In this document: in pieces, positions 3,511-57,203 of the stretch
Layout: the number at the start of each line of letters is the position of its first letter
How positions within the stretch are numbered: position 1 is the first letter of the stretch
NCBI RefSeq assembly: GCF_000317795.1
Contig: NC_019791.1
Location: forward strand, 372,001-436,000
Length of the DNA: 64,000 nucleotides
Direction of reading: 5' to 3'
Origin: Caldisphaera lagunensis DSM 15908
Lineage (GTDB): Archaea > Thermoproteota > Thermoprotei_A > Sulfolobales > Acidilobaceae
Made by a program: the position numbers and the translations under genes
Notes under the pieces: generated by a model
Databases searched by the model: none
The model's input: only the letters and a program-made list of their open reading frames with translations
What the model was told of the DNA's origin: nothing

Positions 3511-4533
3511 TTGAAAGAAACTATTATGGATCCAGCGGAAATAGTGAAGGAAATTCAAATACCATTATATGATGAAATAATGGAGAAAATTAAATCTAGG
3601 TACTCAAAAAAAGGAGGTAAACAATATGAAAAAGAAATAAAATCAATAGAGCTCATTTATAATATAATAAATTCAAAAACTGAATCAATAGTTGAATTAG
3701 AAAAAATGTTGAAAAAGCTACATAATTTTTATTGGGGACTAATTGAGGCAAACTATGATAAGAAAAAAATTTTTGAATCAATTGAATGTATCAAAAAATC
3801 TAGATTTTTTGTAAGAAAATTTTGGGTTGATTATAGAAACAAAATTTTAGCATCGGATACCCCTAAAGAAATGAGAATGCTTTCTAGAGAAGCTAGGGGT
3901 AGAATGATTTCTTCGATAAAAAAATGCAGTAAATCATTAGAATATCTTAGAAATCTTGTTATAACTATCATGTCATTTCCTGGTCTTGATCCTTCTAGAA
4001 AAACGCTTATTATCGCAGGTCCTCCAAATGCAGGAAAATCAACAATAGTATCATCAATTACAAATGCAAACACCAAGGTAGCCTCATATCCATTTACAAC
4101 AAAAGAAATCATTATTGGTCATTTAGAATATGACAAAAATAACGTAATCCAAATAGTTGATACTCCAGGACTTTTAGATAGAAGCATTAATGAAATGAAT
4201 GAAATTGAGAAAAAAGCAATAAGTGCGCTTACTCATCTAGATGGTATTATAATTTTTATCTTAGATCCTTCTAAAGATGCGTACATGCCCCTTGAGGAAC
4301 AATTTAATATTATAAATAACATAAAAAAATTAATTATAAATAAAAAAATTATATTAATTATAAATAAAATAGATCTGCTAAATGATAATGAATTAAAAGC
4401 ATTAGATCATTTATTAAATGAATACCTTGAAAAATTAAACATAAAAGAATTCTATAAAATAAGTGCATTAGATAAAAAAATTTTATTAAATACTATTAAT
4501 AATATAGTTAAATCCAGCCTCTTAGTTTCATAG
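3511..4533 (+). CDS. Nog1-type GTP-binding protein
   Basis: A GTPase of the OBG/NOG1 group, whose eukaryotic members assemble the large ribosomal subunit. The N-terminal ~165 residues form the helical NOG1-type bundle. The G domain follows: P-loop GPPNAGKS at 170-177, switch region YPFTTKE, G3 DTPG at 217-220, and NKID at 285-288. The TTG start at 3511 has a GGAAGG binding site just upstream; an ATG lies at 3526. The 3' end overlaps convergent gdhA by 26 bp. A role in 50S biogenesis is inferred from family. Confidence 0.85.
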   Translation: MKETIMDPAEIVKEIQIPLYDEIMEKIKSRYSKKGGKQYEKEIKSIELIYNIINSKTESIVELEKMLKKLHNFYWGLIEANYDKKKIFESIECIKKSRFFVRKFWVDYRNKILASDTPKEMRMLSREARGRMISSIKKCSKSLEYLRNLVITIMSFPGLDPSRKTLIIAGPPNAGKSTIVSSITNANTKVASYPFTTKEIIIGHLEYDKNNVIQIVDTPGLLDRSINEMNEIEKKAISALTHLDGIIIFILDPSKDAYMPLEEQFNIINNIKKLIINKKIILIINKIDLLNDNELKALDHLLNEYLEKLNIKEFYKISALDKKILLNTINNIVKSSLLVS

Positions 4534-54581: not shown

Positions 54582-55427
54582 TTATTTAAAATCTACTTTT
54601 ACGCTTTGTTCCTTATGTTTAATTTCTTTTATATCATCAGTATTTATAAGAACTATTGTTTTTGTATTATATTTAAGTTTAGTCTTTGCTAGCTCTTCTA
54701 TTTTGCTTTTTGAACCCATAACAGCAACAATTCCTTCTACATGGGTTTGCCTTGTTATAGCTAAATCTATCATTGAACTTAATAATGCTGTCTTATTTCC
54801 ATCTATTGTCACTATTATTATTTTACTCTTCCTAGAGATGCATTCTCTTGGCAATAACAAAACATCAAAGAATTCAGAACTTACTTTATAGTTCTTAGAT
54901 ATGATATGTTTTGAATAAGGGCTATGAGATGCAGCACATAATTTTGCATGAAATAACGATGAGAATGTAGCCCCTAAAGCTGCTGCATAGCTATCAGGGG
55001 CTGAGACTATTACATTAATTTTTTGATCTTTTAAATCGTCTAAAGCCCTTAATCCTGCTAACGTCATTATACCAGGATTGCTTAAAAGCGACCATAATTC
55101 TTCATTCTCAATATAATACTTTGATAATATATCATCTATTATATGTGAAGACCTTATCTTATTTAAAATCTTTTCAGCTGTTGATCTTTCTGGCACTGTT
55201 CTTAATGTAACATATCTCCATAAAATCTGAGCGGGGACATTAAGTCTTTCTTCCAATTCCTTAAATGAATAAAAATATTTGAGCGCTCCAAGCAATCTAA
55301 ATACCATTAGTTTAACATTTTTTGATGAATCCAGCATATCAAAAAAATTATTTTTACCATCCTCATCTTGTTTATGCCAGCTATCATGACGCTCAGACAT
55401 AGTGTTAACTCTCTCTAATATTTCCAC
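54582..55427 (-). CDS. HTH plus phosphoribosyltransferase-like regulator
   Basis: A 281-aa protein with an N-terminal helix-turn-helix (about 45-90, YSFKELEERLNVPAQILWRYVTLRTVPERSTAE) and a C-terminal type I PRTase-like fold (about 120-270) with VIVSAPDSYAAALGA and a loop IIIVTIDGNKTALLSSMIDLA at the place of the PRPP motif. The acidic PRPP motif is degenerate, suggesting ligand sensing rather than catalysis, as in archaeal GfcR/PurR-like regulators. The start is GTG 55427 or ATG 55400. Confidence 0.7.
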   Translation of the reverse strand: MEILERVNTMSERHDSWHKQDEDGKNNFFDMLDSSKNVKLMVFRLLGALKYFYSFKELEERLNVPAQILWRYVTLRTVPERSTAEKILNKIRSSHIIDDILSKYYIENEELWSLLSNPGIMTLAGLRALDDLKDQKINVIVSAPDSYAAALGATFSSLFHAKLCAASHSPYSKHIISKNYKVSSEFFDVLLLPRECISRKSKIIIVTIDGNKTALLSSMIDLAITRQTHVEGIVAVMGSKSKIEELAKTKLKYNTKTIVLINTDDIKEIKHKEQSVKVDFK

Positions 55428-55593
55428 TATTAAGTTCGTAACAGTGCTTTATATATGTTTATTGAGAACCAGACATAGTGTTAAATCTCTATAAGTAAAA
55501 TACTAACTTAATTATTACAATTAAATGTAGAAATTATCATGATATGGGGCAAAAGATGAAATTCCAAAAATTAAATTAAAAAATTTTATATTC

Positions 55594-55758
55594 TTAGAAT
55601 TCCTCTTCTTCACTTTCTTCCTCGCTTTCTTCTTCCTCGCTTTCTTCTTCCTCGAATTCCTCTTCATCATCTAGATCTTCAAATTCTTCTTCATCTTCTT
55701 CCTCGAATTCCTCTTCATCATCTAGATCTTCAAATTCTTCTTCATCTTTCTTGGGCAT
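55594..55758 (-). CDS. Ultra-acidic repeat micro-protein
   Basis: A 54-aa gene found by translating the gap between the PRTase-like gene and spt4. After MPKK, residues 5-21 and 22-38 are identical 17-residue units (DEEEFEDLDDEEEFEEE), followed by three E-rich units with Ser and a final EEEEF. About three quarters of residues are Asp or Glu. A GAGGT site lies 11 nt before the ATG, and no alternative frame is better. Function is unknown. Possible roles include nucleic-acid mimicry, histone or basic-protein chaperoning, or ion binding, all inference. Confidence 0.65.
   Translation of the reverse strand: MPKKDEEEFEDLDDEEEFEEEDEEEFEDLDDEEEFEEEESEEEESEEESEEEEF
55645..55746. repeat. Perfect 51-bp tandem duplication
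   Basis: Two identical 51-bp units, 55645-55695 and 55696-55746, lie inside the acidic micro-protein gene. Each contains EcoRI- and BglII-like hexamers GAATTC and AGATCT. Identity at the DNA level implies recent duplication or active homogenisation. Shorter TTCTTCCTCGC-type repeats continue on the 3' side of the gene. Confidence 0.95.
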
Positions 55759-55983
55759 ATCTCATCTACCTCTTTAATAGACAATTAAGGGAATAATTAG
55801 GGAAATAGATATTTTAGTATCTGTTAGCATAAATATATAATATATCAAGTAATCGATTTAAATATAGCCTTACTTAGAGATATATATTTGAAAAAATTTC
55901 TAAAATAAATAATTAATTTTTAGTAAAATTTTTTATAAAAACATATTAGCGTATTTTATAATTTATATACATAGGTGAAAATA

Positions 55984-56217
55984 TTGCCAAGAAAAATGCC
56001 TACGAAGAAAATTGCAATGAAGGCATGTAAGAATTGTGGAGCTTTAGTTCCAAAGGAGGCAAATATATGTCCAGTTTGTGGCAGCAATAACTTTACTGAA
56101 GATTGGGAAGGTATTTTTGTTGTAATAAGCACGGATTCAGAAATAGCAAAAGAATTAAAGTTTAACAAGAAAGGTACATATGCTATTAAAGTATCAGGTT
56201 CTTACATTATAAAGTAA
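55984..56217 (+). CDS. spt4: Transcription elongation factor Spt4
   Basis: A 77-aa zinc-ribbon protein (ACKNCGALVPKEANICPVCGSNNFTEDWEGIFVVIS), partner of Spt5 on RNA polymerase. The TTG at 55984 is chosen because GGTGA is 5 nt upstream; GTG 55975 overlaps that site and ATG 55996 is further downstream. The pairing with the dephospho-CoA kinase gene downstream is conserved in archaea. Its usual upstream partner rpoE is not adjacent here. Confidence 0.93.
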   Translation: MPRKMPTKKIAMKACKNCGALVPKEANICPVCGSNNFTEDWEGIFVVISTDSEIAKELKFNKKGTYAIKVSGSYIIK

Positions 56218-57099: not shown

Positions 57100-57203
57100 T
57101 GGGGCCGCGGGGATTTGAACCCCGGACCACCAGCGCTCTAGGCATTGGTGGAATAGGGAAATGCTCCCCAGGCTGGCATCCTACCAAGCTAGACGACGGC
57201 CCC
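57100..57203 (-). tRNA. tRNA-Pro(GGG) with 30-nt intron
   Basis: The acceptor GGGGCCG pairs with CGGCCCC, discriminator A. The anticodon stem is CCAGC/GCTGG and the anticodon GGG. The intron 57136-57165 sits at 37/38 and forms a strict bulge-helix-bulge: central helix CTGG/CTAG (one G-U), bulges GGA and AGC, intron helix GCATT/AATGC. The mature tRNA is 74 nt. No encoded CCA. Confidence 0.95.

Follow-up and report, generated by a model that had tools for sequence, protein, structure and literature searches.

A 54-residue ultra-acidic protein of Caldisphaera lagunensis and its probable kinship with the Glu/Trp microproteins often encoded beside ABCE1 in Thermoproteota

The acidic open reading frame studied here lies in a stretch of 64,000 nt from Caldisphaera lagunensis DSM 15908 (contig NC_019791.1, positions 372,001 to 436,000; "the window") and appears to be a translated, selected gene: the Caldisphaera type, with Phe in place of Trp, among the 18-90 aa microproteins of Thermoproteota that are called EW microproteins in this manuscript. 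We assign a probability of about 40% to the reading that this gene is a relocated Phe-type member of a trans-acting EW family whose place of work is the translation machinery, with ABCE1 as the most plausible partner. The components of this reading differ in strength. Membership in the EW family is quite probable and was judged from composition, C-terminus and copy number rather than from alignment; sequences of such low complexity cannot establish that the window gene is homologous to the EW set. Action of the EW product in trans is very probable, the assignment of its site of action to translation or ABCE1 is tentative, and the mode of docking proposed below is unlikely.

The ORF (55594..55758, minus strand; from the ORF listing and searches in relatives) encodes 54 aa, beginning MPKK and ending EEEEF. 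The protein contains 32 E, 8 D, 5 F, 3 S, 2 K and 2 L, so that 40 of its 54 residues are acidic and its net charge is -38. Cys is absent, Trp is absent from the core, and Phe is the only aromatic residue, occupying the C-terminus (...SEEEEF) behind at least three acidic residues. An earlier note on this DNA had described a 54-aa ultra-acidic protein of MPKK plus almost only Glu, Asp, Phe, Leu and Ser, built from a perfect 51-bp tandem repeat and preceded by a good ribosome site. The residue counts bear out the composition, TRF reported a 51-bp period with 2.1 copies and a 100% match (55643..55748, minus strand), and a ribosome-binding site, GAGGT (55768..55772, minus strand), was read from the sequence 9 nt before the ATG. 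Comparison of printed upstream sequences also identified a 5' element, GCTAACAGATACTAAAATATCTATT (55804..55828, minus strand), which is partly palindromic, near-identical in the nearest relative (L034) and recognisable in L033; this conserved element putatively has a role. The window genome is a single contig of 1,546,846 bp, in which a protein search found no second copy of the acidic protein, the Trp-type EW codon pattern had 0 matches, and a pattern for five Glu codons had one match, within no ORF having five consecutive Glu. Rfam gave no match across the ORF.

Downstream of the acidic ORF and on the same strand is an HTH plus phosphoribosyltransferase (PRTase)-like gene (54582..55427, minus strand; profile search), which matches the adenine PRTase model NF006328 weakly and has its own TATA-like element between the two genes. 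On the other side lies spt4 (55975..56217, plus strand; profile search). The ORF had been placed just before spt4, which is correct as to adjacency; however, the two genes are divergent, on opposite strands with start codons about 220 nt apart, and the ORF does not precede spt4 in an operon. A role as operon leader of spt4 was rejected for this reason. ABCE1/RLI was found neither within 1.8 kb of the ORF nor anywhere in the window by tblastn. Two side observations concern this region. In two species, part of the start region of the PRTase-like gene recurs as a duplicate upstream of that gene (window ~55430-55500; L034 ~3915-4050), where it forms a short uORF (starting with MSG.. in the window and MSERHD.. 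in L034). In addition, a tRNA gene of 104 nt (window 57100-57203, minus strand; Rfam RF00005, 51.5 bits; without a report from ARAGORN) probably has an intron, given its length.

A search of relatives between the PRTase-like gene and spt4, as the earlier note had proposed, found an acidic ORF in eight genomes of two genera: four of the window genus (G000, G001, G002 and G004) and four of the sister genus g10 (G013, G022, G072 and G077). Since the ORF is kept at this place in eight genomes, it is more than a chance reading frame and is judged, from sequence comparison, to be a real gene, which supports the claim of a real small acidic protein at spt4. The assembly of G003, the fifth genome of the window genus, is without a close PRTase match and without spt4, and no spt4-adjacent acidic ORF was present in other genera of the family among the loci read. 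The spt4-side ORFs range from 18 aa (MPRKEEEEEEEESSEEEF, in L033, whose PRTase-like gene is 86% identical to that of the window) to 68 aa, and their C-termini are EEEF in six of eight, EEKF in one and EDEE in one (G002). Frame-disrupting changes in relatives had been named as grounds for refutation; instead, the frame and termini are kept across genera.

Comparison with L034 also bears on the age of the repeat. The two genes share 32 identical codons, with 13 synonymous and 8 nonsynonymous differences, and the L034 gene also contains two repeat units, which are non-identical. Both window copies carry CTA and TTC and both L034 copies carry TTA and TTT; this codon identity within each species points to concerted evolution or renewed duplication. 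Because these codon states are common to both window copies and absent from both L034 copies, homogenisation or renewed duplication of the repeat took place once the two lineages had diverged. The repeat, described in the earlier note as young or maintained, is not simply new, as L034 also has two units. Other small ORFs were observed beside PRTase genes. In genus g4, ORFs of 40-47 aa (L045 2290-2433; L046 2269-2391) are basic in their first half and acidic in their second, and lie tail to tail with the PRTase gene. A 25-aa ORF rich in Arg/Lys (MAKRRRRRRRKEKK...; L047 ~1318-1395), opposite in charge to the window ORF, was observed in genus g2 upstream of the distant PRTase homologue.

EW microproteins, that is, small ultra-acidic aromatic ORFs, occur in the family of C. 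lagunensis, in its order and in other classes of the phylum. With the window protein as query, one genome besides its own was reached at E<=10 among 40, and composition-aware codon patterns were therefore used. The patterns were self-chosen, and the composition cut-off (free-standing ORFs no longer than 95 aa in which some stretch of 18 residues contains 12 or more D/E) was fixed after the data had been seen. The set so defined comprises at least 125 distinct proteins at at least 129 places, including two basic-acidic bipartite ORFs (L045 and L046) as well as L035, whose end is not aromatic, and excluding the 18-aa ORF of L033, which falls just under the cut-off. The window ORF has the size and composition of the set. 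N-termini of the longer ORFs are uncertain, as starts were assigned mechanically at the first start codon.

The first pattern, EEEEF with a stop or Trp codon after it, was run on 197 genomes of the order and found Glu/Phe/Trp ORFs of 44-77 aa in further genera of the window's family. A pattern neutral to the C-terminus (four Glu codons, a T-initial codon, any codon, an acidic codon and two Glu codons) matched 142 of 214 genomes of the order, against 10 of 214 for the reversed control (rows counted), and 187 of 398 genomes of the phylum, with none in f15, the most sampled family. A small acidic ORF was present in 25 of the 30 order loci listed (first cut-off), another being the 18-aa gene of L033, in 29 of the 30 phylum loci listed (later cut-off) and in 28 of 29 new loci from a further search. 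Family f11, which we take to be Sulfolobaceae-like, required a separate pattern, EEEW plus stop; this matched 23 of 31 f11 genomes, and 15 of the 30 loci read (14 genomes) held a small ORF, the members being about 31-34 aa long. A pattern for any run of five Glu was dropped as too unspecific. In viral contigs, EEEEWEEEEW had no match, and the single match to EEEWWEEEE was part of a longer ORF and hence no EW gene.

The cores of the 125 proteins have a median length of 29 residues and consist of 71.9% E, 12.0% W, 4.0% D and 3.7% F. These proteins usually terminate in ...EEEEW or ...EEEEF. The C-terminal residue is aromatic in 91 of 125, compared with a mean of about 22 and a maximum of 40 after shuffling, and is preceded by at least three acidic residues in 88; 28 of the 125 end in E. 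Among the 109 proteins from searches that did not select the C-terminus, 78 end in W, F or Y. Aromatic residues are mostly spaced 4-8 residues apart, with many adjacent pairs, a spacing that would keep no single helical face. Phe-only forms were found in the window genus, in part of the sister genus and in the two g4 ORFs, and FW/W intermediate forms in other genera of the window's family.

Substitutions were counted in close EW pairs. Of 22 pairs listed, 5 of unequal length were skipped, and the remaining 17 showed 98 synonymous against 30 nonsynonymous differences; one pair, L263/L265, compares the same genomes as L291/L293 and contributes none. In the absence of selection about one third synonymous would be expected, even counting only transitions in GAR codons, and the counts thus point to purifying selection on the EW proteins.

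In other families the EW gene is linked to ABCE1/RLI. The latter follows the EW gene on its own strand at 51 of the 129 EW places listed, mostly at gaps of 40-302 nt (exceptions: 385, 454, 602 and 1354 nt), and is within 1.8 kb in another arrangement at 12 more. At 66 places, including every member read from the window's family, there is no ABCE1 within 1.8 kb. The model NF009945 confirmed the identity of RLI at two loci from different classes, L184 and L315. The two genes directly adjoin each other in f2, f3, f7, f10, f11 and f14 (10-kb loci; f14 belongs to another class of the phylum) and in f28, f29, f32, f41, f44 and f46 (shorter loci). In f12, one TFS-like gene lies between them, and in f9 the EW gene is mostly inverted relative to ABCE1. 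Surrounding genes include those for eS17, Urm1-like and Cgi121-like proteins, PRTase, FBP aldolase/phosphatase and triose-phosphate isomerase. In the window's family this link has been lost: in most genera read, the EW gene is beside t6A methylthiotransferase, methyltransferase and CdvB/CdvC genes, or an EamA transporter gene, and in two genera beside spt4. Some EW genes, for example in L131, L134 and L137, have both flanking genes on the opposite strand. Such members, together with the relocation, argue for a trans-acting product, and the linkage to ABCE1 makes the recycling machinery the leading candidate site. Two further settings were observed: a beta-aspartyl-peptidase gene is also beside the EW gene in two distant families (L315 and L241), and the Sulfolobaceae-like genome G198 has two EW genes (L277 and L302), one before ABCE1 and the other beside a molybdenum dehydrogenase subunit gene.

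Several other explanations were weighed, among them the nucleic-acid mimicry and the shielding of basic proteins that the earlier note had named as things small acidic proteins can do. That the window ORF is no gene, being a purine-rich repeat open by chance, would suit its low complexity and possible slippage at the 51-bp repeat, and is strongly disfavoured by the frame and termini kept across genera, the mostly synonymous change, the ribosome site and the conserved upstream element. A doubtful explanation, though one to be taken seriously, is a general polyanion that solubilises or shields basic proteins (chromatin, ribosomal) at high temperature with no specific partner, much as poly-D/E chaperones do; the extreme composition-driven conservation, the variable length at one locus (18 aa in L033 to 68 aa) and the varied neighbours outside ABCE1 lineages agree with it, but the conserved C-terminal aromatic residue and recurrent ABCE1 linkage suggest a more specific role. 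Convergence, in which the spt4-side ORF of the window and sister genera would be an independent low-complexity gene unrelated to the Trp-type, is unlikely. It would account for the lack of alignable similarity, the F, S and G in place of W and the different neighbours; however, FW/W intermediates occur in other genera of the same family, the terminal F, size and copy number agree with the EW family, and the window genome holds no Trp-type match, its lone five-Glu codon match lying outside any five-Glu ORF.

That the protein mimics DNA, with the machinery of transcription or replication as its target, is quite improbable. The spt4 gene in the window and the TFS-like zinc-ribbon gene in f9 and f12 are neighbours of a suitable kind, and the acidic, Glu-rich C-terminal tail of PBP1, a small crenarchaeal protein, modulates PolB1 (PMC5418573). 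However, EW genes are linked to ABCE1 far more often, just two genera have the acidic ORF next to spt4, and PBP1 is a different gene with a separate Zn-finger domain. A cis-acting leader peptide, whose D/E-rich translation would destabilise ribosomes and so set the expression of downstream ABCE1, has very little probability. The many genomes in which an EW gene precedes ABCE1 by 40-300 nt on the same strand agree with it, and D/E-rich nascent chains do destabilise ribosomes in E. coli and yeast (PMC9718836), although the same paper gives no apparent N-terminal D/E bias for the archaeon Pyrococcus furiosus. About half of the EW places have no nearby ABCE1, the f9 genes are mostly inverted, and members such as L131, L134 and L137 have no same-strand downstream gene, all of which stand against it.

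In the preferred reading, that of a relocated member of a trans-acting EW family, the EW gene, which in many lineages immediately precedes ABCE1/RLI in the same orientation, would have moved in the window's family. Its product would be a soluble polyanion, flexible or singly helical, whose spaced aromatic residues and C-terminal EEEEW/EEEEF may dock on some part of the translation machinery whose surface is basic and has hydrophobic grooves; a polyanion that carries aromatic stickers and ends in an aromatic carboxylate would suit a basic surface with hydrophobic pockets. The dock would most plausibly be ABCE1, or else the site at which the stalk protein aP1 is bound by its acidic tail with a hydrophobic end, and docking would tune ribosome recycling. 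The boldest form of this proposal, on which we remain sceptical, is that Thermoproteota possess an unrecognised, widespread recycling cofactor of 20-60 aa Glu/Trp, ancestrally encoded with ABCE1, whose EEEEW/EEEEF end docks on ABCE1 or competes with the stalk, the Caldisphaera protein being a relocated Phe-type form with a self-homogenising repeat. The EW protein, with about 72% Glu and 12% Trp, is kept across archaeal classes, and its gene is linked to that of ABCE1. Should it prove to bind either ABCE1 or the ribosome, a process that archaea share with eukaryotes would gain a new factor; whether or not it does, it tests how strongly selection can act on composition as opposed to sequence. 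The members in Sulfolobaceae-like genomes make genetic testing feasible in laboratory strains of that family.

The EW family matches no curated family searched and is too short and low in complexity for standard annotation. Pfam and NCBIfam gave no curated profile match for the window protein or its relatives; one Trp-type protein scored 9.4 bits (E 1.1) against DUF4796_C, below the cut-off of 28. EW queries and profiles drew no PDB chain at E<=10. The statement of the earlier note that no protein with this exact unit was known was too narrow, as L034 has an imperfect unit and an order- and phylum-wide Glu/aromatic set exists. AlphaFold modelled the window protein as one long helix (pLDDT 75, pTM 0.40), which is uninformative for a poly-Glu protein. 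Among the papers listed by searches of open-access literature (PMC), none dealt with small acidic or ABCE1-linked archaeal proteins of this kind, a hypothetical-protein entry in subscription papers or arCOG tables being conceivable, and the string EEEWEEE was confined to two plant NAC papers.

One of the known systems nearest in form is the tail of the stalk protein aP1, which like the EW proteins has a Glu run with a hydrophobic C-terminus, as seen in the L318 protein that we take to be aP1. The archaeal ribosomal stalk protein is reportedly crucial for the action of ABCE1, to judge from the title of work by Imai in 2018 that is cited in PMC6791870. EW proteins differ from aP1 in being free-standing ORFs of 18-90 aa without an N-terminal dimerisation domain or the AGLGALFG ending. 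DSS1/Sem1 is a small, very acidic, Trp-containing, disordered protein; it shares small size and high acidity with the EW proteins but no detectable similarity, since no PDB chain, presumably including those of DSS1/Sem1, was matched at E<=10. Acidic leader peptides that destabilise ribosomes resemble EW genes as short D/E-rich ORFs upstream of another gene, whereas many EW genes have no downstream gene to control in cis. PBP1 is also a small crenarchaeal protein with a Glu-rich C-terminus but has a 78-residue domain with conserved Cys and a Zn-finger motif (PMC5418573), none of which is found in the window protein.
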